The notes under the pieces are model-generated. The model was not told where the DNA came from. It was given only the letters and a program-made list of their open reading frames with translations, and did not search any database. This document shows positions 52,233-64,000 of a stretch of 64,000 nucleotides of DNA, one piece after another (position 1 is the stretch's first letter; every line of letters begins with the position of its first letter). This stretch comes from Roseovarius sp. A-2 (GTDB lineage Bacteria; Pseudomonadota; Alphaproteobacteria; Rhodobacterales; Rhodobacteraceae): the NCBI RefSeq assembly GCF_002072155.1, contig NZ_BDIY01000006.1, forward strand, positions 1-64,000, given 5' to 3'. The position numbers and the translations under genes are program-made.

Positions 52233-52322
52233 CAAGATCTTTCAGTTGCCATTTCAGCGCGTCTACTGGCGTGGAAACCGGGTAAGCACGATAAAAACCG
52301 ACGCACAGAGGTCTCGGTGAGG

Positions 52323-53888
52323 ATGTTGCAGCGCCCCTTTGGCTTTGAAGCAATACCTAATCTTGCCAAACTTGTTACCGTTATGCAAATTAGGTTTGCG
52401 AACGTCGATTGTCACTATCATCGCGTGAACGGAGAAACGAATAAATTGTCTGCAATCTCGACTGTCCTGCTGAAATCGAAGGATGAGGCGGTCATCAATG
52501 CCGCGTCGCAGGCACTGAGCGAGTTGGACGGCTATCGGCTGATCTTTTGCGCCGATGACGAGGCGGCAAAGAGCAGGCTTGATGAGTTGAAGGTCGATTT
52601 GATCCTGTATGATTTTGACAAGGGCGATTTCGGGCCGGAGAATGCGCTGCTTCGATCCCGCCTCTCACATGCCGCTTGCTGGCGTATCGTGATTTGTGAC
52701 GAAGACGACGTGAGCGCCGGGGCGCAGCTTTGCGAGGATACCGCGTCCTATCTCTATCTGGCCAAACCGCTGCAACACCAGCAGCTTCGCATCGTCGTCA
52801 AGCGCGCGCTGGAACATGCGGAACTGTCGCGCCGGCACCGGATCCTGAGCCGCGAGCTGAAGCTGTCGCTGGATGACGAGATCTTCGGCGGGGAAGAGGC
52901 AGGATCGGTTCAGGGGGGCGTTTCGCGCTTTGAACGGCTGGTCTATGCCAGCCCCAAGATGGCCGATCTGGTGGCCGAGGCCAAGGTCGCGGCGACAACA
53001 GACATGCCAGTGCTGATCCGTGGGGAAACCGGGACCGGCAAGGAGCTTCTGGCGCGCGCGATCCACTTCAACTCGCATCGCGTGAACTCTCCGATGCACA
53101 GCCAGAATTGTGGGGGCGTGTCCGACGATGCCCTTTATTCGGAATTCTTCGGCCATGTGCGCGGTGCCTTTTCCGGTGCCATCGCTGATCGGCTGGGGCT
53201 GTTTCGCGCGGCTGATGGCGGCACTGTCTTCCTTGATGAGGTGTCAGAGGTCTCGCCGCATTTTCAGGTGGCGCTGCTGCGGTTCTTGCAGGAGGGCGAG
53301 GTCAAGCCGTTGGGCTCGGACAAGACGCTGCACAGCAATGTCCGTATAATTGCGGCGTCGAACCGCTCGATTGACGAGATGGTGGAGCAGGGCACGTTCC
53401 GGCGCGATCTCTATTATCGGCTCAGGGGGTTTCAGCTCGATCTGCCCGCGCTGCGGGAGCGATCCGAGGATATCCCGGTGCTGACGCAGTTCTTTGTGGA
53501 GAAATACGCGGGCGTGGTGGGGCGGCGGGTGCTCGGGGTGACGTCGGACGTGCTCAAGCGGCTAGAGCATTACCCGTTTCCGGGTAATGTACGGGAGCTT
53601 GAAAGCGAGGTTCAGCGCATGGTCGCGGTGGCGGAGCAGGGCGGCTATGTCGCCCTGCGGCACCTCTCCGAGAAGATCGCGCGCACGCCGGTTGAAACCA
53701 ACGGAAACGCGAGTCTCGCGGTTGCGGGGGCGACCCTGAAGGACAAGGTGGAGACCCTTGAAAAGGACGTTCTGAGGCAGGCGCTCACGACCTTCCACTG
53801 GAACCAGAGCAAGGTCGCGGAGGATCTGGGCCTGTCGCGCGTCGGTCTGGCCAACAAGATCAAACGCTATGGGCTGCGCAAGGTGTGA
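52323..53888 (+). CDS. NtrC-family sigma-54-type regulator of the hydrogenase locus (HoxA/HupR-like)
   Basis: A 521-residue regulator. Residues 43-170 form a degenerate receiver: DLILYDFD (Asp97) and LAKPL (Lys148) remain, but the N-terminal acidic pair is missing (LLKSKDE). The AAA+ domain has Walker A GETGTGKE (234-241), GAFSGA (281-286) and GGTVFLDE (299-306). A Fis-type HTH ends it. HoxA and HupR proteins are of this build and activate hydrogenase genes. The start is unsure: GTG 52317 or TTG 52446 (preceded by GGAGA) are alternatives. It may act without phosphorylation. Confidence 0.8.
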   Translation: MLQRPFGFEAIPNLAKLVTVMQIRFANVDCHYHRVNGETNKLSAISTVLLKSKDEAVINAASQALSELDGYRLIFCADDEAAKSRLDELKVDLILYDFDKGDFGPENALLRSRLSHAACWRIVICDEDDVSAGAQLCEDTASYLYLAKPLQHQQLRIVVKRALEHAELSRRHRILSRELKLSLDDEIFGGEEAGSVQGGVSRFERLVYASPKMADLVAEAKVAATTDMPVLIRGETGTGKELLARAIHFNSHRVNSPMHSQNCGGVSDDALYSEFFGHVRGAFSGAIADRLGLFRAADGGTVFLDEVSEVSPHFQVALLRFLQEGEVKPLGSDKTLHSNVRIIAASNRSIDEMVEQGTFRRDLYYRLRGFQLDLPALRERSEDIPVLTQFFVEKYAGVVGRRVLGVTSDVLKRLEHYPFPGNVRELESEVQRMVAVAEQGGYVALRHLSEKIARTPVETNGNASLAVAGATLKDKVETLEKDVLRQALTTFHWNQSKVAEDLGLSRVGLANKIKRYGLRKV

Positions 53889-53891
53889 GAC

Positions 53892-54116
53892 ATGCAGAAC
53901 GATGATCCGAAAAGCAAGATCATCAGATTTCCGTTTGCCCGCTCCGGGGTGGCGATGAGCCGGGATGCCCCGCGCAACCTGGGCCTGACGCCGATGTCGA
54001 AGGCGGTAGCGACTGAGGGGCGCGGTGCCAAAGGGCATTGGTGTGCCGACTGCAAGGGCATCTGGTACAGCTACTTTCCGGAGGTGCAATGCCCGGTCTG
54101 CGGGCGGCGCGGATAA
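53892..54116 (+). CDS. Small zinc-ribbon protein of the hydrogenase locus
   Basis: A 74-residue protein with a basic N-terminus and a C-terminal ribbon, WCADCKGIWYS and QCPVCGRRG, with cysteines at 51, 54, 67 and 70 (C-x2-C-x12-C-x2-C). It begins four bases after the regulator stop, so it is in that operon, and 230 bp separate it from the hydrogenase small subunit. It does not resemble HypA. The function is unknown. Confidence 0.6.
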   Translation: MQNDDPKSKIIRFPFARSGVAMSRDAPRNLGLTPMSKAVATEGRGAKGHWCADCKGIWYSYFPEVQCPVCGRRG

Positions 54117-54166
54117 GCGCAAGAGGCGCAAACCAAGTTAGCATCGCGACAGAAAACTTGATTATC

Positions 54167-54175
54167 AGTTTACAC
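54167..54175 (+). promoter_or_regulatory. Copy 1 of a nine-base motif in the hydrogenase promoters
   Basis: AGTTTACAC occurs here, 172 bp before the hydrogenase small-subunit start, and again at 58504-58512 before the second transcription unit. It may be a shared operator or promoter element. Confidence 0.4.
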
Positions 54176-54210
54176 TTTGTTTCGGGAATTCACCGCGCCA
54201 CGCGTCAGTG

Positions 54211-54243
54211 TTGATTTGTGTCACTGCCCGTCGGGCGACACAA
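54211..54243. promoter_or_regulatory. Nested dyad with an FNR-like box before hucS
   Basis: TTGTGTC (54216-54222) and GACACAA (54237-54243) are exact inverted repeats 14 bp apart, and GCCCG-T-CGGGC (54226-54236) is nested inside. The left part TTGATTTGTGTCAC (54211-54224) matches FNR/FnrL (TTGAT-N4-ATCAA) with a perfect left half and 3 of 5 in the right. It is 104 bp from the hucS start. Confidence 0.5.
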
Positions 54244-54346
54244 TCGAATGGTCAGGCCCGAGCCATACTCGCCACAGCCAAGCCTATATCTTGGATCCCG
54301 GAGAGGAGGTTCGCGCCACGCGCGTCGATCTTTGGGAGGAAGAAAA

Positions 54347-55309
54347 ATGGCAAACCTGTTGTGGCTTCAGGGGGGGGCGTGTTCCGGCAACACGATGTCC
54401 TTTCTGAATGCCGAGGAACCAAGCGCTTGCGATCTGGTGACCGATTTCGGCATCAACGTGTTGTGGCAGCCGTCGCTCGGTCTCGAACTGGGTGATCAGG
54501 TCAAGGAGATCATCGAGAAATGCATCTCGGGCGAGATCAAGCTCGATATCTTTGTCTTCGAGGGCACGGTGATCAATGCGCCCAATGGCACCGGGGAATG
54601 GAACCGGTTCTGCGGGCGGCCGATGAAGGACTGGGTCAAGGAGCTGAGCGCTGCCGCCGATTTCGTGGTCGCGATCGGAGATTGCGCGACCTATGGCGGC
54701 ATTCCGGCTACCGCGCCCAACCCCACCGACAGCGTCGGGCTGCAATTTCTCAAGCGCGCCAAGGGCGGCGCATTGGGCGACGGCTTTACCGCAAAATCAG
54801 GCCTTCCGGTCATCAACATTCCCGGCTGCCCCGCACATCCCGACTGGGTCACGCAGATCCTTGTCGCCGTGGCGACGGGCCGCGCCGGTGATCTGACTCT
54901 GGACGAGTTCCATCGTCCCAAGACATTCTTTTCGTCCTTCACCCAGACCGGCTGCACGCGCAACATGCATTTCGCCTACAAGGTCTCGACCACGGCGTTC
55001 GGGCAGCGCAAGGGCTGCCTGTTCTATGATCTGGGCTGTCGCGGCCCGATGACCCATAGCCCCTGCAACCGGATTCTGTGGAACCGCCATTCGTCGAAGA
55101 CCCGCGCAGGCATGCCGTGCCTGGGCTGTACCGAGCCGGAGTTTCCATTCTTCGATCTGGCACCGGGCACGGTCTTCAAGACGCAGACCGTGATGGGCGT
55201 GCCCAAAGACATGCCCGAGGGCGTGGACAAGAAGGGCTACATCAAGCTGACCGCCGCCGCCAAGGGCGCGGCACCGGCCTGGGCCGAAGAAGATATCTTC
55301 GTGGTCTGA
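54347..55309 (+). CDS. hucS: Group 2a-type [NiFe] hydrogenase small subunit
   Basis: A 320-residue Fe-S subunit that carries electrons from the NiFe site. It has no Tat signal peptide, so the enzyme stays in the cytoplasm. The first motif is WLQGGACSGNTMSF: Cys12 is kept, but the usual second cysteine of CxxC is Asn15, as in cyanobacterial HupS and Huc, which fits a [3Fe-4S] proximal cluster. Further cysteines lie in GDCATYGG, PGCPAHPDW, QTGCTRNMHF, KGCLFYDLGCRGP, HSPCNRI and MPCLGCTEPEF. ATG 54347 follows GGGAGGA by six bases. It pairs with hucL 22 bp downstream. Confidence 0.9.
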   Translation: MANLLWLQGGACSGNTMSFLNAEEPSACDLVTDFGINVLWQPSLGLELGDQVKEIIEKCISGEIKLDIFVFEGTVINAPNGTGEWNRFCGRPMKDWVKELSAAADFVVAIGDCATYGGIPATAPNPTDSVGLQFLKRAKGGALGDGFTAKSGLPVINIPGCPAHPDWVTQILVAVATGRAGDLTLDEFHRPKTFFSSFTQTGCTRNMHFAYKVSTTAFGQRKGCLFYDLGCRGPMTHSPCNRILWNRHSSKTRAGMPCLGCTEPEFPFFDLAPGTVFKTQTVMGVPKDMPEGVDKKGYIKLTAAAKGAAPAWAEEDIFVV

Positions 55310-55331
55310 CCGCGATTTGGGAGAGAGAAAC

Positions 55332-56930
55332 ATGTCTACAGCAGTCGAAACACTCGACATTTCACCGGTCGGCCGCGTCGAGGGCGATCTGGATGTGCGG
55401 GTCGATATCGAAAACGGCGTCGTCACCAATGCCTGGACCCATGCGGAGATGTTCCGCGGCTTCGAGGTGATCCTCAAGGACAAGGACCCGCAGGCCGGGC
55501 TGGTCGTCACGCCACGGGCCTGCGGCATCTGCGGCGCGTCGCACCTGACCTGCGCGGCCTGGGCGCTCGATACCGCCTGGGGCACGACGGTGCCGCGCAA
55601 CGCCATTCTGGCGCGCAACCTCGGGCAGATCGTGGAATCCCTGCAATCACTGCCCCGACACCATTACGGGCTGTGGATGATCGACTATACCAATGACAAC
55701 TACGCGATGAGCCCGTTCTACGAGGAAGCCGTCAAGCGCTATTCGCCCTTCACCGGGACCTCTTACGAGGCTGGGGTGACGATTTCGGGACGTCCGGTTG
55801 AGATCTACGCGCTTTTGGGTGGGCAGTGGCCGCATTCGTCCTTCATGGTGCCGGGCGGCGTGATGTGTTCGCCGACGCTGACCGATATCACCCGGGCCTG
55901 GTCGATCCTGGAGCATTTCCGCCAGAACTGGATCGAGCCGCTGTGGTTTGGCTGTTCGATGGAACGCTACGAGGAAATCCAGACACTGGAGCAGTTCGAG
56001 GCGTGGCTGGATGAGAAGCCCGAACACGCCAATTCGGATCTCGGCCTGTTCTGGCGCATGTCCAAGGATATCGGCCTCGACAAATACGGCAAGGGTCACG
56101 GTCGGTTCACGACCTGGGGCTACCTGCCACATGAGGACAAGTATCAAAACCCGACCATCAATGGCCGCGCCGATGCGGTGATCATGAAATCGGGCATCTA
56201 TGACGGGGCGAGCGACACGTTCAGCCCGATGGATCAATCCTTCGTGCGCGAAGACACGCAGCACGCCTGGTATGACGAGGGCGGGGCGGTGCATCCCTTC
56301 GACCGCACCACCAACCCGGTGGCCAAGAACACCATCGACCCGGCGGGCAAATATTCGTGGTCGACGGCGGTATCGCATGCCGAGGCCGGGCGGCTGGAGG
56401 CCGGGCCGCTGGCGCGCCGGCTGATCGCGGGCAACGAGGCGGGCCATGATTTCCAGCACAAGGATGGGCTGGTGCTCGATATGTATCGCAAGATGGGCGG
56501 GGCCTCGACCATGCTGCGCCATTTCGCGCGGATGCATGAGCTGTGTATTCTCTACCGCGAGGCCGAGCGTAACCTGCGTGAATTCAGGCTTAACGACGAA
56601 TGGTACATCAAGCCCACCGAAAAGGATGGTCAGGGTTGGGGGGCGACCGAGGCGATCCGGGGGGCGCTGTGCCACTGGATCGACGTGCGCGACGGCAAGA
56701 TCGCCAACTACCAGATCATCGCGCCGACCACCTGGAATGTCGGTCCGCGCACCGCCGAAGGCACGCGCGGCCCGATCGAAGAGGCGCTGATCGGCACCCC
56801 GATCAAGAACACCGCCGACCCGGTCGAGGTCGGCCATGTCTGCCGGTCCTATGACAGTTGCCTTGTGTGCACGGTTCATGCGCATGATGCAAAATCCGGT
56901 GACGAACTGGCCCGCTTCCGAACCGCCTGA
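55332..56930 (+). CDS. hucL: Group 2a-type [NiFe] hydrogenase large subunit
   Basis: A 532-residue catalytic subunit that splits H2. The N-terminal NiFe ligands are in RACGICGASH (Cys64, Cys67), after RVEGD, and the C-terminal ones in DSCLVCTVH (Cys510, Cys513, His516). A 16-residue extension (517-532) follows His516 and must be cleaved by a maturation protease, which excludes the sensor HupV type that lacks it. ATG 55332 follows GGGAGAGAGAA. Together with the Asn15 small subunit this fits the high-affinity group 2a enzymes. Confidence 0.92.
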   Translation: MSTAVETLDISPVGRVEGDLDVRVDIENGVVTNAWTHAEMFRGFEVILKDKDPQAGLVVTPRACGICGASHLTCAAWALDTAWGTTVPRNAILARNLGQIVESLQSLPRHHYGLWMIDYTNDNYAMSPFYEEAVKRYSPFTGTSYEAGVTISGRPVEIYALLGGQWPHSSFMVPGGVMCSPTLTDITRAWSILEHFRQNWIEPLWFGCSMERYEEIQTLEQFEAWLDEKPEHANSDLGLFWRMSKDIGLDKYGKGHGRFTTWGYLPHEDKYQNPTINGRADAVIMKSGIYDGASDTFSPMDQSFVREDTQHAWYDEGGAVHPFDRTTNPVAKNTIDPAGKYSWSTAVSHAEAGRLEAGPLARRLIAGNEAGHDFQHKDGLVLDMYRKMGGASTMLRHFARMHELCILYREAERNLREFRLNDEWYIKPTEKDGQGWGATEAIRGALCHWIDVRDGKIANYQIIAPTTWNVGPRTAEGTRGPIEEALIGTPIKNTADPVEVGHVCRSYDSCLVCTVHAHDAKSGDELARFRTA

Positions 56931-56940
56931 TGTTGCGTAT

Positions 56941-56967
56941 CGGTCGGCGGGTCAGGCCTGCCGACCG
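56941..56967. other. Stem-loop after hucL
   Basis: CGGTCGGC (56941-56948) pairs with GCCGACCG (56960-56967), 10 bp after the hucL stop and before the next ribosome binding site. There is no T run, so it may set transcript stability rather than end it, keeping hucSL RNA more abundant than the downstream genes. Confidence 0.5.
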
Positions 56968-56998
56968 TGTGCCATGCGGCAATCAGGGAGGAAGCTGA

Positions 56999-57385
56999 AT
57001 GTCAAAGGATTCAGAGACGACTTTCGGAGAGGAGCAGCGCCGGGCCTATCTCGAACGATACGGGTTGACGCCCGCCGAGGCGGGGCATGACATGTTGATC
57101 CAGATGATCGAGGACATGTTCAAGGAGGGCCTGACCACCGAGGTCGAGCCGTTTCCCGAAACCGACCGCGAATTCGGGGCCCTGCTGGACAAGCTTCGGC
57201 CCCTGAGCGCGGATCAGCTGCGCGAGAAGCTGGTGATCTCGGGCTGGCTCTTGCAGCCCTATGGCGAGGACCAGATGCGGTGTCAGGAATGCATGTATTA
57301 CCTTGTGCACAAGCGCTGGTGCGACCTGCCCGAGCTTGATCTTCCGGCCAAGCCGGAATGGTGGTGTCGCCTGTGGCGGATTTGA
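56999..57385 (+). CDS. Four-cysteine protein 1 of the hydrogenase operon (HiPIP-like spacing)
   Basis: A 128-residue soluble protein. The N-terminal two thirds are helical, and the C-terminus is RCQECMYYLVHKRWCDLPEL followed by a Pro/Trp-rich stretch ending CRLWRI. Cysteines 95, 98, 108 and 123 give C-x2-C-x9-C-x14-C, with an aromatic pair after the second cysteine and Trp before the fourth, as in high-potential iron-sulfur proteins. No signal peptide is present, so it would act in the cytoplasm. A zinc site is the alternative. ATG 56999 follows GGGAGGAAG. Confidence 0.6.
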   Translation: MSKDSETTFGEEQRRAYLERYGLTPAEAGHDMLIQMIEDMFKEGLTTEVEPFPETDREFGALLDKLRPLSADQLREKLVISGWLLQPYGEDQMRCQECMYYLVHKRWCDLPELDLPAKPEWWCRLWRI

Positions 57386-57398
57386 AGGGAGCGCCGAA

Positions 57399-57710
57399 AT
57401 GGACGACGATCAGATGCGCGCGACGATAGCCGGGATGCTGGCCTGTGGCCTCGAAACCGAAGTCTGGCCCCGTGCCGGCACCAGCGAGGAGGTCAATGCC
57501 ATCGTGGCGCGGTTGCAGGTCGAGGCAGGTGATAATCTGGAGAGAAAACTGGTGATCGCCGGGTTCACCGATCACACCATCGAGGCCGACGGGATCGAAC
57601 AGCCGTGCGAGACCTGTATGTATTACAAGGTCCATGCGAGGTTCTGCGATCTGCCGGAGCTGATGCTGCCGGTCGAGCCGGAGTGGTCCTGCCGCCTGTG
57701 GCGCATCTGA
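57399..57710 (+). CDS. Four-cysteine protein 2 of the hydrogenase operon, paralogue of the preceding gene
   Basis: A 103-residue paralogue of the gene at 56999, 13 bp downstream. The shared C-terminus has CETCMYYKVHARFCDLPEL and EPEWSCRLWRI, with cysteines 70, 73, 83 and 98 at exactly the same spacing. The N-terminal halves share only the pattern GLxTEVxP and LVI[SA]G. The duplication followed by divergence suggests two sites for the same cofactor or partner. Its stop overlaps the protease ATG by one base. Confidence 0.6.
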   Translation: MDDDQMRATIAGMLACGLETEVWPRAGTSEEVNAIVARLQVEAGDNLERKLVIAGFTDHTIEADGIEQPCETCMYYKVHARFCDLPELMLPVEPEWSCRLWRI

Positions 57711-58183
57711 TGCCCCCCGACGTCGTGGTGATCGGCTGTGGCAACCCGAACCGGAGCGATGATGGCGCAGGCCCCCATCTGATCGCGCGGATGCGGGAAC
57801 ATGGTGTGCCCGAGCATACCCGCATTTTCGATGGTGGCACCGACGGCATGTCGGTGATGTACAGCGCCCGGGGGGCCACGCATCTGATCATTGTCGATGC
57901 GCGTGTCCCCGACGGCAATCCCGGCGCCATCTTCGAAGTGCCGGGCGAGGTGCTGGAGGCGCCGCCGAAGCAAAGCCTCAACTTGCATGATTTCCGTTGG
58001 GATCACGCGCTTTTTGCCGGGCGTCGCATCTATGGCGAAGATTTTCCCGGCGATGTGTCGGTGTTCCTGATCGAGGCCGCCACACTAGAGCTGGGCCTTG
58101 GCCTTAGCGCGGCGGTGTCGCACGCCACCGAGGCGGTCGAGACGCGGATCCGCGAGCTGATCAAGGGCTGGAGCTGCGCATGA
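57710..58183 (+). CDS. Hydrogenase large-subunit maturation endopeptidase
   Basis: A 157-residue protein of the HycI/HupD/HoxW family that trims the C-terminal extension of HucL after nickel insertion. Key motif IGCGNPNRSDDGAG carries the first nickel-binding aspartate, followed by VDARVPDG and an HDFRWDHAL region with histidine. It overlaps the upstream stop by one base and the next ATG as ATGA, fitting a tight maturation operon. Confidence 0.85.
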   Translation: MPPDVVVIGCGNPNRSDDGAGPHLIARMREHGVPEHTRIFDGGTDGMSVMYSARGATHLIIVDARVPDGNPGAIFEVPGEVLEAPPKQSLNLHDFRWDHALFAGRRIYGEDFPGDVSVFLIEAATLELGLGLSAAVSHATEAVETRIRELIKGWSCA

Positions 58184-58494
58184 CCTGCATCGCTGTCAGG
58201 GAGGGTGCGATCTATCTGCCCCGCGCCGTGGTCGACACCTATTTCAGCGGGATTGATGCGGTCATCGTACTGATCGAAGAGGGCGAGCTGATGGTGATCC
58301 CGGTGCATCAGGCCACTGCCGGGGGCTGCCTGCTCAAGATCAGGAATGCCGCCGGGGACAGGGTGGTGCAGGCCCGCGACGTGTTTCAGGACCGCGATCT
58401 TTTGGGGTTTGCGACCGAGGCCCTGGCGGTTGGGTGGCAGGCCGACAAGGGCGCGCTTTGCGCCAAACTGCCGCCCGTGTCGCAAATAAAATAA
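58180..58494 (+). CDS. Hydrogenase-associated hypothetical protein
   Basis: A 104-residue protein, VDTYFSGIDAVIVLIEEGEL and HQATAGGCLLKIRNAAGDRV, with beta-rich predicted structure. It overlaps the protease gene by ATGA. I do not recognise its family. It lacks the N-terminal Met-Cys of HypC and the cysteine motifs of HypA, so it is not one of the common accessory proteins. Confidence 0.6.
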   Translation: MTCIAVREGAIYLPRAVVDTYFSGIDAVIVLIEEGELMVIPVHQATAGGCLLKIRNAAGDRVVQARDVFQDRDLLGFATEALAVGWQADKGALCAKLPPVSQIK

Positions 58495-58503
58495 AGCAAA
58501 TTA

Positions 58504-58531
58504 AGTTTACACAAAACTAAGATTGTTGACA
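58504..58531 (+). promoter_or_regulatory. Copy 2 of the nine-base motif and a possible -35 box of the second hydrogenase unit
   Basis: AGTTTACAC (58504-58512) repeats the motif at 54167. TTGACA at 58526-58531 is a perfect -35 hexamer, but the region 16-17 bp downstream has only a weak -10 (TACTCC). It lies before the TPR gene, in a 104-bp gap. Confidence 0.4.
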
Positions 58532-58598
58532 GGTTTCGCGGCGGCTGTACTCCGGAGAGAGGGAAGTAGGATGTTGATTGATTCGAGGGAGGGGTGGC

Positions 58599-59600
58599 GT
58601 GAGTAGCGTCAGTCGCGCAGAGCAGCAGGTTCAGGCCGCCATGAAAGCCGTCGAGACGGCAGCGGCGAGCGAGGCCGAGAAGGCCGAGATGCTGATGGAG
58701 ATTGCGATGGGGCTGCAACAAAAGCCCGAGCGTGCCGAAGATCTCCATGCCGCGGTCGATCTGTACGAGCGTGCGATGGATCTTGCGCCTGCGGATGAGG
58801 TGCTGGGCATCGCCCGCATCCGCGCCCGTCTGGCCACCGCCCTGATGGCGCTGCCCGCCGAAGATGCGGCACCTCTGAAACGGGCGAAGGCGGAAATCGA
58901 GTTGGCGCTGGCGACCCTGACCGCCGAAGGCTCGGATGCCGAAGTGGCCGAGGCGGAGATGAATCTCGGTCTGATCTGCCAGACGCTCGCGGGGATGCGT
59001 CTTTTGCCCATCCAGCCTGCGATCAGCGCCTATCAGCGCGCGGCGCGGACCTTTGACAAGCTAGGCTACCCCAAGGAATTCGCGATCCTGCAAAACAATC
59101 TGGCCACAGCGTTTCTGTCGATGCCGTTCACCGACCAGAGTGGCAAGATGCGTGAGGCGCTGGCGGTACAGGCCTTCGAAGAGGCATTGGGTGTAGTCAA
59201 CCTGATCGACCATCCCAGCGAATACGCGATGCTGCAAAACAACCTCGGCAACGCGCTGCAATATGTCTCGTCGTCACATCGGCTGGAGAACGGCTACCGC
59301 GCGCTGGAGGCCTATGACGAGGCGCTCAAGGTGCGCACGCCCCGCGACACGCCCGAGGAATACGCCAATACCATCGCCAACAAGGCGAACTGCCTGTCCA
59401 ACCTGCCGGATGATCCGTCGAACCCCGATGGCGGCAATTTCGGCAACCTGACCGAGGCGGTGCGCCTGCTGGAGGAGGCGCGGGGCGTGTTCACGGCGCG
59501 CGGGGCATCTGACAAGGCGCAGGCGGTGGCGGAGGCCATTGCCGAGTTTACGACGGCGCTTGGGCCGTCGACAATTCTGGAACGGAGTGGACTGCAATGA
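58599..59600 (+). CDS. TPR-repeat protein of the hydrogenase locus
   Basis: A 333-residue soluble helical-repeat protein. Repeats are visible around DLYERAMDLAPADEV, AEMNLGLICQTLAG, EFAILQNNLATAFL and EYAMLQNNLGNALQ, the latter two nearly identical in their cores. Huc-type clusters in other phyla also encode a TPR protein, probably a scaffold for assembly. GTG 58599 follows GAGGGAGGGG by about five bases. It begins the second transcription unit. Confidence 0.8.
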   Translation: MSSVSRAEQQVQAAMKAVETAAASEAEKAEMLMEIAMGLQQKPERAEDLHAAVDLYERAMDLAPADEVLGIARIRARLATALMALPAEDAAPLKRAKAEIELALATLTAEGSDAEVAEAEMNLGLICQTLAGMRLLPIQPAISAYQRAARTFDKLGYPKEFAILQNNLATAFLSMPFTDQSGKMREALAVQAFEEALGVVNLIDHPSEYAMLQNNLGNALQYVSSSHRLENGYRALEAYDEALKVRTPRDTPEEYANTIANKANCLSNLPDDPSNPDGGNFGNLTEAVRLLEEARGVFTARGASDKAQAVAEAIAEFTTALGPSTILERSGLQ

Positions 59601-59616
59601 GAACTGGAGATTTGAG

Positions 59617-59811
59617 GTGATCGGATTGATCGTGATCATGGCCCTGGTGCTGGGCCTACTGGCCGCGCTTGGAGCCGGGGCCGTATCGGGTCTGCGCATC
59701 GGCAAGGCGGCGCTTGGCGCGGACCTGGCCGCGTATATGGGCGCGCTTTACGGCGTGCTGGCAGGCAGTATTTCGGTCGTCGTGACGACGCTCATCCTGT
59801 TGATAATTTGA
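59617..59811 (+). CDS. 64-residue membrane protein 1 of the hydrogenase locus
   Basis: A short protein almost wholly of two membrane helices (about 2-24 and 42-64, GLIVIMALVLGLLAALGAGA and VLAGSISVVVTTLILLII) with a small polar loop. GTG 59617 has GGAGA six bases upstream. It lies 16 bp after the TPR gene. A companion membrane protein follows at 59821. They may anchor the soluble hydrogenase near the membrane or quinone pool; that is inference. Confidence 0.65.
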   Translation: MIGLIVIMALVLGLLAALGAGAVSGLRIGKAALGADLAAYMGALYGVLAGSISVVVTTLILLII

Positions 59812-59820
59812 GGTGCTATC

Positions 59821-60042
59821 ATGCTTGAAATGGTCATGAATTCCGCCCGGCAGTTTTTCGCGGGCACACTGTTCAAGGACAACAAGGCCGCGATACGGCA
59901 GCTTATGATCGCGGCGGCTCTGGGTGTTGTCGCCGGGGTTCTGGTCGGACTGGTGGCGCCGGTCTGGGCCGGTGCGATTGCGGCGGGTGCGGTGAGCGGG
60001 GCCGCTCTTCCGGTCCTCTACAAAGACCTGAAATACGCCTGA
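59821..60042 (+). CDS. 73-residue membrane protein 2 of the hydrogenase locus
   Basis: A short protein with a charged N-terminus (NSARQFFAGTLFKDNKAAIR) and two Ala/Gly-rich helices (MIAAALGVVAGVLVGLVA and AGAIAAGAVSGAALPVL). It sits 9 bp after membrane protein 1 and 3 bp before the NifU-Rieske gene. Gly-Ala helical hairpins such as these can form oligomeric membrane scaffolds. Its function is unknown. Confidence 0.65.
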   Translation: MLEMVMNSARQFFAGTLFKDNKAAIRQLMIAAALGVVAGVLVGLVAPVWAGAIAAGAVSGAALPVLYKDLKYA

Positions 60043-60045
60043 CCG

Positions 60046-60915
60046 ATGACCGACGCCTCGCCCCATGACGCGCAACGCCCGACGCTCGATCATCTGATCG
60101 GCGAATTGACCGCGTTGGAGATGCTGGCCGAGGGCTGGGACGAGGCGGCGCAGGGCGGCGCGCGGGCAAGGGCCGAGGCGGTCGATGCGCTCAACAGGGA
60201 GGCGTTCCGCCGCCTGATCCGTGCGCTGAAGGATCAGCCTGGCTTTGGCGCGGCCTTGAAGGAGGCGGCGCGCGACGAGGTGGTCTATGCGGTACTGCGC
60301 CGACACGGTATCCTGCGCCCATCGCTGTATGAACGGGTCGAGGCGGCGCTTGACAGCGTGCGTCCCGGTCTTGCCAGCCATGGCGGCGATGCTGAGGTTG
60401 TATCGGTGACGGGCAACCGGGCGGAAATCAGGTTCCTCGGTGCCTGCGATGGCTGCCCGGCGTCGCAACTGACCTTCTATGCCGGGGTCAAGAAAGCGAT
60501 CCAGGATCAGGTGCCCGAGGTCACCGAGGTGAAACAGGCCAAGGGGCTGGGCGGTGGCGGCTCTGATACGGTGCAATTCACCTCGCCTTTCGCCAATTAC
60601 GCCGAGACTGAATGGATCACGGCGCTGCCTCTGAGCGATCTGGCCGAGGGCGAGACCCGGTTTGTCGAGATCGCAAACCATTCCGTGATCCTGACGCGTT
60701 TTGCCGAAAAGGTCAGCTGTTTCCGCAATGCCTGTGCGCATATGGCGCTGGAGATGACGCAAGGAGAGATCCGCGACACGATCCTGACCTGTCCGCATCA
60801 CGGCTTTCGCTACGCGCTGGACAGCGGTGAATGCCTGACCGCGCCCGAGGTTCAGCTGCAACCCCATGCAGTGCGCGTCAAGGGCGCGAATATCGAAGTG
60901 AGGCTGATCGCATGA
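60046..60915 (+). CDS. NifU-Rieske fusion protein (HucE-like)
   Basis: A 289-residue protein. The N-terminal helical region (1-90) precedes a NifU C-terminal type domain (95-160) with CDGC (Cys134, Cys137), a Gly-rich linker (167-173), and a Rieske domain (175-289). The Rieske [2Fe-2S] ligands are CAH (Cys230, His232) and CPHH (Cys249, His252). In the mycobacterial Huc system a protein of this kind (HucE) is a candidate electron acceptor. It overlaps the NHL gene by 4 bp. Confidence 0.85.
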   Translation: MTDASPHDAQRPTLDHLIGELTALEMLAEGWDEAAQGGARARAEAVDALNREAFRRLIRALKDQPGFGAALKEAARDEVVYAVLRRHGILRPSLYERVEAALDSVRPGLASHGGDAEVVSVTGNRAEIRFLGACDGCPASQLTFYAGVKKAIQDQVPEVTEVKQAKGLGGGGSDTVQFTSPFANYAETEWITALPLSDLAEGETRFVEIANHSVILTRFAEKVSCFRNACAHMALEMTQGEIRDTILTCPHHGFRYALDSGECLTAPEVQLQPHAVRVKGANIEVRLIA

Positions 60916-62090
60916 GGGTCTCTCTGTCGCGTTCGTTCACCCCGCAAAAGGCACCGGGCACGGCCATTCCCGGCGCGCCCTTGTTGGAGGGGCAGGGCGC
61001 GCGGGTCATTCTGGGCAGTGACGGCGGCGCGCTGGTGCAGGCAATCACCCCGGCGCGGCACCTGATGTTCGGGCCGCGCGGCGTGTGCCTGCATCCTGAC
61101 GGCTCGCTCTGGGTCAGCGATACCGGGCATCACCGCGTTTTGGGGTGGAAGACAGTGCCGACCGGCGATGATACGCCCGCCGACATCCTGATGGGTCAGC
61201 CCGCATTTGGCCGTGAGGGCCGCAATGCCAAGGGTGCGGTCGCGGCCAACACGCTGAACGTGCCCACCGGGATCACCGCCTTTCGCGGCGGGCTGGCGGT
61301 GGCCGACCCGTGGAACCACCGGGTGCTGATCTGGCGCGAGACGCCGACAGGCCCGGATCATGGCGCGGATATCGTTCTGGGCCAACCCGATGCCGCAAGT
61401 GCGCAGGCGAATGCGGGCCTGGCCCATGCGCGGGCGGACAGCCTGCACTGGCCTTACGGGGTGTCGGCGGATGGTGACCGGCTGATCGTTTGTGACACCG
61501 GGAACCGCCGTGTGCTGATCTGGAATGATCCGCAATCCACCGGTCAACCGGCGGATCTGGTTCTGGGGCAGCGCGATTTTACCTGCCGAGATGAGAACGC
61601 GGGCGAAGCGGTGTCGGAATTCTCGATGCGCTGGCCGCATATGGCGCTGGTCTGGCGGGGCGGGTTGGCCGTGGCGGATGCGGGCAACAACCGCGTGATG
61701 ATCTGGGAGGGCTTTCCCAAGGAGAACGGCGCGCCCTGTCAAAGCGTGTTGGGGCAGGCCGATATGGCGGCCTGCGACCACAACATGGCGGCCTATTACC
61801 CAAGCGCACAGGCGATGAACATGCCTTATGCTCTGGCGGTTCTGGGCTCGCGGCTGGTGGTGGCGGACACGGCCAATTCTCGGTTGCTGGGGTTCGGGAC
61901 GACGGCGATGGCCGAACCTGCCGACCGGCTGAGCGCGCAGCCCGATTTTGCCGCCAAGGGTGACAACCGTTGGGGCATCGCGGGGCGCGACACGCTGTGC
62001 TGGCCTTACGGTCTGTCGGCGCTCGGCTCGACGCTGGCCATCGCCGACAGCGGCAACAACCGCGTTCTGATCTGGGAGGCGGCCCTATGA
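60912..62090 (+). CDS. NHL-repeat beta-propeller protein of the hydrogenase locus
   Basis: A 392-residue propeller built of about six NHL repeats, each with a pattern like VSDTGHHRVLGW, VADPWNHRVLIW, VCDTGNRRVLIW, VADAGNNRVMIW, VADTANSRLLGF and IADSGNNRVLIW. NHL proteins accompany group 2a hydrogenase operons in several phyla, where their role is not settled; scaffold or assembly is likely. Overlaps the Rieske and hypF genes as ATGA. Confidence 0.85.
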   Translation: MRVSLSRSFTPQKAPGTAIPGAPLLEGQGARVILGSDGGALVQAITPARHLMFGPRGVCLHPDGSLWVSDTGHHRVLGWKTVPTGDDTPADILMGQPAFGREGRNAKGAVAANTLNVPTGITAFRGGLAVADPWNHRVLIWRETPTGPDHGADIVLGQPDAASAQANAGLAHARADSLHWPYGVSADGDRLIVCDTGNRRVLIWNDPQSTGQPADLVLGQRDFTCRDENAGEAVSEFSMRWPHMALVWRGGLAVADAGNNRVMIWEGFPKENGAPCQSVLGQADMAACDHNMAAYYPSAQAMNMPYALAVLGSRLVVADTANSRLLGFGTTAMAEPADRLSAQPDFAAKGDNRWGIAGRDTLCWPYGLSALGSTLAIADSGNNRVLIWEAAL

Positions 62091-64000
62091 CCGGCGCGCG
62101 CATCACCGTGTGCGGTCAGGTGCAGGGCGTCGGCTTTCGCCCCACTGTCTGGCGGCTGGCGCAGGAGATGGGACTGACCGGCGATGTGAGCAATACCGGT
62201 GAGGGGGTGGTCATCCGGCTGTGGGGTGAGGGGGTGGCGACATTCCCCGATAAGCTGCACGGCGCGCTGCCGCCGCTGGCGCGGATCGAACGGCTCGATA
62301 TGACCCCGCTGAGCGACCCGGCCCCGTGCCGTTTCGAGATAACCGCCTCGCAGGGTGGCGAGATGCGTGGCAGCGTTACGCCCGATGCCGCGACCTGCGC
62401 CGACTGTCTGGCAGAGATTCGCGATCCCTTCGCGAGGCGCTATCGCTATCCCTTCGCCAATTGCACCAATTGCGGCCCGCGTTTTTCCATCGTGCGCGCG
62501 GCCCCCTATGACCGCGACAAGACAACCATGGCCCCATTCGACATGTGCACGCCCTGTGCGGCCGAATATGGCGATCCGGCCGATCGCCGGTTTCATGCGC
62601 AGCCCATTGCCTGCGGTCGCTGCGGGCCAAATATCTGGATCGAGAAGCTGGGGTGTGGTGCCGTCAATCTCGAAGCGTTTTCGATGCTCGATGATGTGGA
62701 TGCCACAGGCGGCATGATCCTGAACGGGCATATCGTCGCGATCCGGGGGCTGGGCGGGGTGCATCTGGCCTGTGATGCGACCAATTCCCGGGCGGTGGCC
62801 GAGTTGCGCCGACGCAAGGCGCGCGCGGGCAAGGCCTTTGCGCTGATGGTGCGCGATCTCGACGTGTTGCGCGCCTATTGCGAGGTGTCGGATGTCGAGG
62901 CGGACATACTTTCTGGCCCGGCGGCCCCCATTGTTCTGCTCAAGGCGCGCCCCAACAGCCTGCCCGAGGGAATCGCGCCGGGGCTGGACCGGTTGGGCGT
63001 TATGCTGCCTTACACGCCGTTCTATCATATGATCCTGCGGCGCATCGGACGCCCGGTGGTGATGACCAGCGGCAATCCGTCCGGGCAGCCGCAATGCACC
63101 GACAACCACGACACCCGCACGCGGCTGGCCGGGATCGCGGATTTCGCCTGCCTGCATGACCGCGACATCGCCAACCGGATCGACGACAGTGTTGTCCGCG
63201 TCGATCTGGGCCGGGCGCGGGTGCTGCGCCGGGCACGGGGCTATGCGCCGCAAGCGCTCGAATTGCCCGACGGCTTTGCCACTGCGCCGGATATTCTGGC
63301 GCTCGGGGCGGAGCAGAAGAACACGTTCTGCCTGATCAAGGACGGGCGCGCGATCCTGTCCCAGCATATGGGCGATCTGGAGGATGCGGCGACGCATGCG
63401 GATACGGCGCGCAACCTCGATCTCTATGCAAACCTTTTCGATCATGCGCCGGCGGTGGTCGCCGTGGACCTGCACCCGGCATATCTCTCGACGCAGCGCG
63501 GGTTCGAGATGGCGGATGGCCGCCCGGTGATCGAGGTGCAGCATCACCACGCGCATATTGCCGCCTGCCTGGCCGAGAACGCGCGTCCACTCGCGGCTGC
63601 GCCGGTGCTCGGAATCGCGCTCGACGGGACCGGGATGGGCGATGACGGCACGATCTGGGGCGGTGAATTCCTGATCTGCGACTATCGCGGATATCGGCGG
63701 GCGGGATGTCTGAAGCCGGTGGCCTTGCCCGGCGGTGCGGCGGCGGTGCGCGAACCGTGGCGCAATGCCTATGCCCATTTGATGGCCGAGATGGGCTGGG
63801 CGGAGTTTGCGATGAACTTTGCCGAACTGCCGCTTTTCGAGCGGATGCAAGCGCTGCCCCGTGACACGCTCGACGCAATGATCCGGTCGGGTACCAATGC
63901 GCCCTTGGCCTCGTCCTGCGGGCGGTTGTTCGATGCGGCGGCGGCCATCGCGGGCTTGGCCTGGGATCGGCAGGATTACGAGGGCGAGGCGGCGATGCGG
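62087..64000 (+). CDS. hypF: Hydrogenase maturation protein HypF, cut by window end
   Basis: The first 638 codons of a carbamoyltransferase that makes the CN ligands of the NiFe site. It starts with an acylphosphatase domain (GQVQGVGFRPTVWRLAQE), then four zinc-finger cysteine pairs (CADC, CTNC, CTPC, CGRC), then a YrdC-like domain, and a Kae1/HypF C-terminal part with HHHAHIAACLAE. The ATG at 62087 overlaps the NHL stop. The remaining C-terminus and other hyp genes lie past position 64000. Confidence 0.9.
   Translation, partial: MTGARITVCGQVQGVGFRPTVWRLAQEMGLTGDVSNTGEGVVIRLWGEGVATFPDKLHGALPPLARIERLDMTPLSDPAPCRFEITASQGGEMRGSVTPDAATCADCLAEIRDPFARRYRYPFANCTNCGPRFSIVRAAPYDRDKTTMAPFDMCTPCAAEYGDPADRRFHAQPIACGRCGPNIWIEKLGCGAVNLEAFSMLDDVDATGGMILNGHIVAIRGLGGVHLACDATNSRAVAELRRRKARAGKAFALMVRDLDVLRAYCEVSDVEADILSGPAAPIVLLKARPNSLPEGIAPGLDRLGVMLPYTPFYHMILRRIGRPVVMTSGNPSGQPQCTDNHDTRTRLAGIADFACLHDRDIANRIDDSVVRVDLGRARVLRRARGYAPQALELPDGFATAPDILALGAEQKNTFCLIKDGRAILSQHMGDLEDAATHADTARNLDLYANLFDHAPAVVAVDLHPAYLSTQRGFEMADGRPVIEVQHHHAHIAACLAENARPLAAAPVLGIALDGTGMGDDGTIWGGEFLICDYRGYRRAGCLKPVALPGGAAAVREPWRNAYAHLMAEMGWAEFAMNFAELPLFERMQALPRDTLDAMIRSGTNAPLASSCGRLFDAAAAIAGLAWDRQDYEGEAAMR

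Follow-up and report, generated by a model that had tools for sequence, protein, structure and literature searches.

The stretch analysed here (the window) comprises bases 1 to 64,000 of a 181,928-bp contig (NZ_BDIY01000006.1) of Roseovarius sp. A-2, whose draft genome of 4.58 Mb in 126 contigs is 99.98% complete. It carries a [NiFe] hydrogenase operon, huc, which occupies a single strand from position 52317 to the window end and runs on to hypB at contig position 68,667 (Table 1). An earlier reading of the same DNA, made from its letters and open reading frames (ORFs) and called here the sequence-only reading, had described a complete group 2a locus with protease, TPR, NHL, NifU-Rieske and hypF genes. 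We found all of these genes in the operon, and the group assignment stands. The locus is not, however, complete within the window, as hypF is cut at position 64000 and six genes lie beyond it. Pfam supports the TPR-type gene only weakly (E = 0.0095, under the cut-off); homology to annotated TPR proteins also underlies its assignment. Several further genes had gone unmentioned: a 74-amino-acid (aa) ORF, two tandem four-cysteine (Cys4) proteins, which we call CysA and CysB, a 104-aa protein, and two small hydrophobic proteins, TM1 and TM2.

The identity of HucS and HucL as group 2a [NiFe] hydrogenase subunits is settled at the level of sequence by PDB matches, pairwise identities and the HucL tree. 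The best PDB matches of both are Mycobacterium smegmatis Huc (7utd, 7uur, 7uus and 8dqv; codes as in the Huc paper, PMC10017518; papers are cited here by PMC number, each for the passages concerned). HucS aligns end to end with M. smegmatis HucS (E = 1e-159), and HucL matches M. smegmatis HucL at E = 2e-177, values that leave no room for chance similarity. As had been claimed, HucS, which starts MANLLWLQGGACSGNTMSF, has no twin-arginine translocation (Tat) signal and carries CSGN in the CxxC position, as does the aligned M. smegmatis chain. HucL has its NiFe-site CxxC pairs at residues 64 (CGIC) and 510 (CLVC) and, also as claimed, a tail after DSCLVCTVH; the aligned PDB chain stops at that His. 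HucL is 84.7% identical to that of Sphingopyxis alaskensis, 73.6% to Nostoc linckia, 71.1% to Acidithiobacillus and 54.6% to mycobacterial HucL, against 33.6% to the group 2b HoxC and 26.5% to the group 1d HoxG. The sequence-only reading had named HucL phylogeny as one test that could refute it. In our 98-row tree, the window HucL sits with Roseobacteraceae and Paracoccaceae sequences, inside the proteobacterial portion of group 2a and apart from the 2b and 1d rows. Because the outgroups are a single 1d and a single 2b row, both on branches of length 10, the pairwise identities weigh most for the class. The operon also includes a NifU-Rieske gene, hucE, as group 2a loci do. The genome contains only one NiFe large subunit, and searches of it yielded no sensor hydrogenase and no match to RuBisCO or to a nitrogenase component (Oxidored_nitro).

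Near-identical gene orders occur on plasmids of Octadecabacter and Roseovarius indicus, apart from another nickel permease, and on plasmids of S. alaskensis and Novosphingobium, with an extra SIS-domain gene. The Octadecabacter and R. indicus plasmids were typed as conjugative. HucL is identical among the Octadecabacter, R. indicus, Nioella, Aestuariivita, Thiosulfatihalobacter and Brevirhabdus loci, and the window HucL is 96% identical to those of Octadecabacter sp. SW4 and R. indicus DSM 26383. At E 1e-100, HucL was found in 4 of 390 genomes of the order and 4 of 385 of the class, the window's own included in each, and in none of 11 other same-genus genomes listed. In the window genome the operon sits on the 182-kb contig next to common housekeeping genes, truA among them. 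Eight same-genus truA neighbourhoods (11 kb; 8 of 29 other genomes) matched no other-flank or huc query, and the flank queries DUF3445, serS and usp were uninformative; since synteny was too poor, we dropped the argument from an empty insertion site. The plasmid operon of S. alaskensis RB2256 is nearly identical in order from regulator to hypB, has a HucS 91% identical to ours, and shares the CysA/CysB pair and the zinc-less 80-aa HypA described below. Unlike the window operon, it keeps a GAYTGA motif and a sigma-54 promoter (11 of 12 matches), has the extra SIS-domain gene, and carries a NicO-like rather than a HupE-type nickel permease.

Group 2a enzymes have been reported to oxidise atmospheric H2 during growth, and HucL is present in Alphaproteobacteria too (PMC7784904). 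S. alaskensis, with its plasmid-borne group 2a enzyme, consumes H2 to a sub-atmospheric level in exponential phase (PMC10305171). Both the class and what it does in marine bacteria have thus been published, and in its core the operon belongs to a known kind. Based on the PDB matches, the group 2a tree position and identities, the near-identical plasmid operons, the uptake by S. alaskensis, the single NiFe large subunit and the lack of RuBisCO and nitrogenase matches, we consider it likely, with good confidence, that this organotrophic marine rhodobacterian oxidises trace H2 in the cytoplasm by means of a horizontally spread group 2a uptake hydrogenase, passing the electrons to the respiratory chain. 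By homology to S. alaskensis, we propose that the enzyme would have a high affinity for atmospheric H2. The earlier suggestion of a lithoheterotroph fits both the genome-wide searches and the closest tested relative, which takes up sub-atmospheric H2 while growing on organic medium (PMC10305171). The claim that this gene set is the hallmark of high affinity was overstated: it marks group 2a, as N2-fixing cyanobacteria have the same TPR/two-TM/NifU/NHL block (PMC2408588).

The variant feature most worth following up is HypA. The sole above-cut-off HypA of the genome is 80 aa long and matches positions 1–65 of a 112-position model. It scores 50.1 bits against the Pfam HypA cut-off of 28.9, and 39.7 bits with the NCBIfam hypA equivalog, below the required 88.1. 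No second full-length HypA was found in the genome; six weaker matches, of at most 18.6 bits (cut-off 28.9), cover the zinc part of the model only. Like canonical HypA, the protein has the MHE nickel motif, a hypB neighbour and, in its AlphaFold2 model (predicted local distance difference test score, pLDDT, 92.8), the nickel-domain fold; the top 14 Foldseek PDB matches are all HypA structures. Unlike canonical HypA, it has no CxxC...CxxC zinc loop, and on its sequence we describe it as a HypA-derived zinc-less variant. A census of the genomes of 50 of 80 named huc loci gave 47 with HypA, some sharing one hypA sequence, and three with none. HypA lengths were bimodal across the 47: 21 genomes had the short form only, 25 the full-length form only and one had one of each. 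In 19 of the 21 short-only genomes the match ended at position 64–70, and in two it reached 95–96 by stop read-through. The 23 short hypA copies (L144–L166, 20 distinct) are open at 77–81 aa, and none contains CxxC. In the alignment, which leaves out three GTG-start rows (L027, L122 and L137), a gap of about 33 columns removes the CxxC–CxxC loop and leaves the final beta strand in place.

Mapped on the HucL tree (57 rows), short HypA implies four changes, two of them forced by starred branches, and a single zinc-less clade was rejected (approximately unbiased test, p = 2e-45). HypA's own tree gives three changes, and there a single origin was not rejected (80 columns, p = 0.22). This favours, without proving, that the zinc loop was lost independently in Rhodanobacter (L083) and in a betaproteobacterium (L092); hypA may also have been transferred. 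A split HypA, in which the zinc-ribbon-like ORF upstream of hucS would supply the zinc loop, was rejected as a simple complement, since that ORF also occurs in loci with full-length HypA (for example L026 and L027). The same ORF has matches in 62 of the 99 huc locus stretches that were scanned (duplicates of single organisms and partial loci included), and for several plasmid records the PLSDB gene table does not list it. A search of open-licence full texts with a few word choices found no description of a zinc-less HypA. A review places a zinc site in all HypA proteins (PMC7055735; general background in PMC12134894 and PMC3287977); huc genomes whose sole HypA is zinc-less make the role of the finger testable with natural variants from non-pathogens. 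One Parvularcula metagenome-assembled genome (G785; L157 and L158) has two distinct zinc-less hypA genes, each on its own contig, perhaps from two huc operons.

The second departure concerns control of the operon. The window regulator is 37% identical to Cupriavidus necator HoxA over 484 columns, and it shares its AAA+ and Fis-type helix-turn-helix (HTH) domains with the HoxA/HupR sigma-54 activators. Those systems have GAFTGA, the motif by which activators contact sigma-54, and a -24/-12 promoter, unlike the window with its GAFSGA. We compared the 60 loci that offered both the motif and hucS upstream DNA, near-copies included; loci with no regulator match or too little upstream DNA fall outside this set, as does L073, whose aligned piece misses the motif and whose promoter match is 11. 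In 39 loci the motif read GAFTGA, GAYTGA or GSFTGA, and all 39 had a -24/-12 box with 9–12 of 12 matches, 63–141 bases before hucS. In the other 21, the window included, the threonine was replaced and none had the box. Shuffled versions of 91 upstream regions (330 bases, 50 each; 4,550 in total) scored 9 in 196 cases, 10 in 32 and never more. RpoN (PF04552) was present in all 33 tested genomes with the threonine motif. It was missing from 11 of the 19 distinct genomes without it (G023 and G777 counted as one), among them G182 (three contigs, completeness 100) and the window genome, where no match was found. Given the known role of GAFTGA, the window activator has probably ceased to work with sigma-54. 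The loss of the contact motif, the absent -24/-12 box and the lack of an RpoN match together suggest that it most likely works on a sigma-70-type promoter. Our limited literature search found no description of such a move. The operon offers a small, self-contained example in which activator and promoter appear to have left sigma-54 together, some of the hosts being RpoN-less.

The Cys4 protein (CX2CX9CX14C with a conserved Trp) was found in 77 of the 99 stretches, 67 of which have two such ORFs and 10 a single one; Nitrospirales and one cyanobacterial metagenome-assembled genome (L095) are among them. It was not found in the five actinobacterial, Thermus, Sulfobacillus and Bacteroidota loci, in most cyanobacterial loci, in L077, L087 and L107, or in the window organism's own hyp-gene stretch L003. 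In the class sample, the genomes with CysA/CysB are the very 4 of 385 that have HucL, and each has two copies. TM2-like ORFs were present in 71 of the 99 stretches. In M. smegmatis, HucM builds the Huc scaffold and a proposed quinone tube (PMC10017518). The M. smegmatis enzyme resembles that of the window in HucS/HucL family, CSGN and tail site, and the M. intracellulare plasmid locus, taken as its stand-in, has HucE, NHL and TPR-like neighbours; it differs in having HucM, no counterpart of which was found in the window genome. There, HucM (DUF1641, PF07849) had no match at E 1, with a model of only 39 positions that matched 5 of 14 controls, above the cut-off in 3. DUF1641-type ORFs (phmmer, E 0.01), equated with HucM by position and annotation, occurred only in L028–L030 of the 99 stretches, several of them partial; the DUF1641 profile gave two further weak matches (E = 0.021 and 0.051). 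At E 0.01, the proteobacterial and cyanobacterial loci scanned yielded no HucM-like ORF. Our reading of these sequences is that this branch of Huc may use another scaffold or exit route. The published quinone-tube model rests on HucM, and without it CysA/CysB, TM1/TM2 and HucE become candidate quinone routes. The tandem Cys4 pair after hucL without HucM is partly in print already (PMC7735108). On the plasmids of Mesorhizobium huakuii (L027) and M. intracellulare (L028), the huc operon is adjacent to Calvin-cycle genes, among them those for RuBisCO subunits, unlike in the window genome.

In the mechanism that we propose, HucL would split H2 and HucS would carry the electrons through clusters that, judging from the aligned cysteines and the common CSGN, probably resemble the three [3Fe-4S] clusters of M. 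smegmatis Huc. HucE (described in PMC6883350), CysA/CysB, TM1/TM2 and the TPR and NHL proteins may serve in small-subunit assembly or in the link to quinone; in Nostoc, the TPR/two-TM/NifU/NHL block has been proposed to act in small-subunit maturation (PMC2408588). As expected from their families, HypF, HypC, HypD and HypE would assemble the Fe(CN)2CO group, and nickel would be inserted by HypB together with the 80-aa HypA, after which HucD would cleave the 16-aa HucL tail. The HupR-type activator would drive a sigma-70-type promoter of hucS.

Several points weigh against the explanation set out above. The rhodobacterian Marinovum algicola, which has a different hydrogenase (group 1l), showed no substantial H2 consumption (PMC10305171), and activity, affinity and expression in Roseovarius sp. 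A-2 are predictions from genes. Regarding control, RpoN is retained in 8 of the 19 distinct genomes without the threonine motif; of the 11 that lack it, 5 are metagenome-assembled genomes, in which its absence is weak evidence. The link between motif and promoter comprises only three independent contrasts on the HucL tree; every one points the same way, but they are too few for significance (sign test, p = 0.25). When the motif is set against RpoN, most of these contrasts show no difference (0.6 of 3 agree in direction). The zinc-less HypA could also be impaired, as eight H. pylori HypA zinc-site cysteine mutants retained 9–15% (four) or 36–60% (four) of wild-type hydrogenase activity (PMC7055735). 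One alternative is that the operon recycles internal H2 or serves medium-affinity use, as in N2-fixing cyanobacteria, with no use of atmospheric H2. These cyanobacteria do have the same extended operon (asr0689–alr0693: two small membrane proteins, TPR, NifU, NHL and hyp genes; PMC2408588), and HucL is nearer to the N. linckia locus than to mycobacterial Huc. CysA/CysB were not detected in Nostocales-type and related loci, which gave no match to the window regulator at E 1e-40 either (some loci partial in both cases). Against recycling, the genome gave no match to nitrogenase and no second NiFe large subunit, and the much closer S. alaskensis enzyme reaches sub-atmospheric H2 (PMC10305171), which leaves recycling improbable. 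An NtrC-type regulator gene adjoins hucSL, as one does beside the pHG1 sensor hydrogenase, and might point to a group 2b H2 sensor or a group 1 membrane hydrogenase. Against this, HucL is far closer to S. alaskensis Huc than to HoxC or HoxG and lies within group 2a on the tree, and no scanned operon protein matched a cytochrome b or histidine kinase family. We give this explanation practically no weight.

Two further alternatives concern parts of the system that we take to be a working uptake hydrogenase. The 80-aa HypA could be a decaying gene in an operon on its way out, with nickel inserted by HypB alone or not at all, and the importance of the zinc site in H. pylori (PMC7055735) favours that view. 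Yet all 23 short copies have stayed open although, where aligned, they are only 33–83% identical to the window copy, MHE at the start is invariant in all 44 alignment rows, and the same 80-aa form stands in the operon of the H2-consuming S. alaskensis strain. Decay is, in our judgement, very unlikely. The Cys and Trp spacing of CysA/CysB resembles that of high-potential iron-sulfur proteins (HiPIPs), and the two first-ranked of 12 Foldseek matches of CysB are HiPIPs, albeit weak ones (E = 0.28 and 2.1; template modelling scores 0.32–0.37 on the query). In A. ferrooxidans, a putative HiPIP near hupLS was independently named, with the NifU-Rieske protein, as a candidate electron link (PMC7735108). 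The pair may instead be zinc-binding maturation chaperones of the small subunit and not electron carriers. In keeping with this, the neighbouring genes are largely maturation genes, those template modelling scores are low, and Pfam gave no family for the window pair at E 0.1. Only 2 of 70 Cys4 family members matched the HIPIP model (PF01355; best E = 0.66), and 21 other, unrelated Pfam families were also listed for these members, down to E = 0.0064. Searches of the PDB gave no match to the single CysB sequence at E 10, and only designed helical repeats with the Cys4 profile (E = 0.43–2.3). A HiPIP-like role is, on these models, about an even call, and a zinc chaperone a real possibility with slightly less than an even chance.

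Combining these features, we tentatively suggest, as a reading that could well prove wrong, that marine alphaproteobacterial Huc has been rewired. Nickel would be delivered by a zinc-finger-less HypA, the finger having been lost at least twice on the HucL tree. Electrons would leave through a HiPIP-like pair and two small membrane proteins instead of a HucM tube, and the activator and promoter would have moved off sigma-54 as the plasmid operon entered RpoN-less roseobacters. In our limited literature search, the zinc-less HypA and the change of regulator and promoter were the two features found to be undescribed, and this branch's HypA and control switch make two general claims on these enzymes testable.

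Table 1 Genes and other features of the huc operon of Roseovarius sp. A-2 (window positions unless marked as contig positions)
Feature	Position	Strand	Remarks
NtrC/HoxA/HupR-type regulator, degenerate GAFTGA loop (GAFSGA)	52317..53888	+	AAA+ and Fis-type HTH domains
74-aa zinc-ribbon-like ORF (CADC...CPVC)	53892..54116	+	no Pfam match; upstream of hucS in many proteobacterial huc loci
hucS upstream region	54117..54346	+	sigma-54 -24/-12 promoter absent; best core match 6/12
hucS, group 2a small subunit	54347..55309	+	Tat signal absent; CSGN
hucL, group 2a large subunit	55332..56930	+	profile match, tree, pairwise identities
hucL C-terminal tail codons, 16 aa (AHDAKSGDELARFRTA), presumably cleaved at maturation	56880..56927	+	alignment to PDB chain
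CysA, 128-aa Cys4 protein (CX2CX9CX14C..W), HiPIP-like	56999..57385	+	
CysB, 103-aa CysA paralogue	57399..57710	+	AlphaFold2 model, pLDDT 96.7
hucD, hydrogenase maturation protease	57710..58183	+	
104-aa conserved protein of unknown function	58180..58494	+	
TPR-like protein, counterpart of cyanobacterial alr0691 by type and neighbourhood	58578..59600	+	PMC2408588
TM1, small hydrophobic protein	59638..59811	+	weak asr0689-family match, E 0.023, below cut-off
TM2, small hydrophobic protein, 73 aa	59821..60042	+	similar ORFs in cyanobacterial hup loci too
hucE, NifU-Rieske protein	60046..60915	+	PMC6883350
NHL-repeat protein	60912..62090	+	
hypF	62087..64000, continuing to contig 64,432	+	
hypC, hypD, hypE, HupE/UreJ permease (hupE), 80-aa hypA, hypB, in that order	beyond window, up to contig 68,667		
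zinc-less hypA	contig 67,580-67,822		outside window

Two of the remaining genes vary among close relatives. Over 126 aligned aa, HucD shares only 45% identity with the protease of the plasmid operons that have a 96% identical HucL, and its neighbours are far closer to the same operons (CysB 88%, the 104-aa protein 79%); HucD may have been replaced or may evolve fast. The nickel permease between hypE and hypA is of the HupE/UreJ type here (L003, 4897-5517) and NicO-like (annotated HflD) in the relatives L022 (25573-26325) and L024 (22403-23122), the L022 match lying just under the Pfam cut-off.

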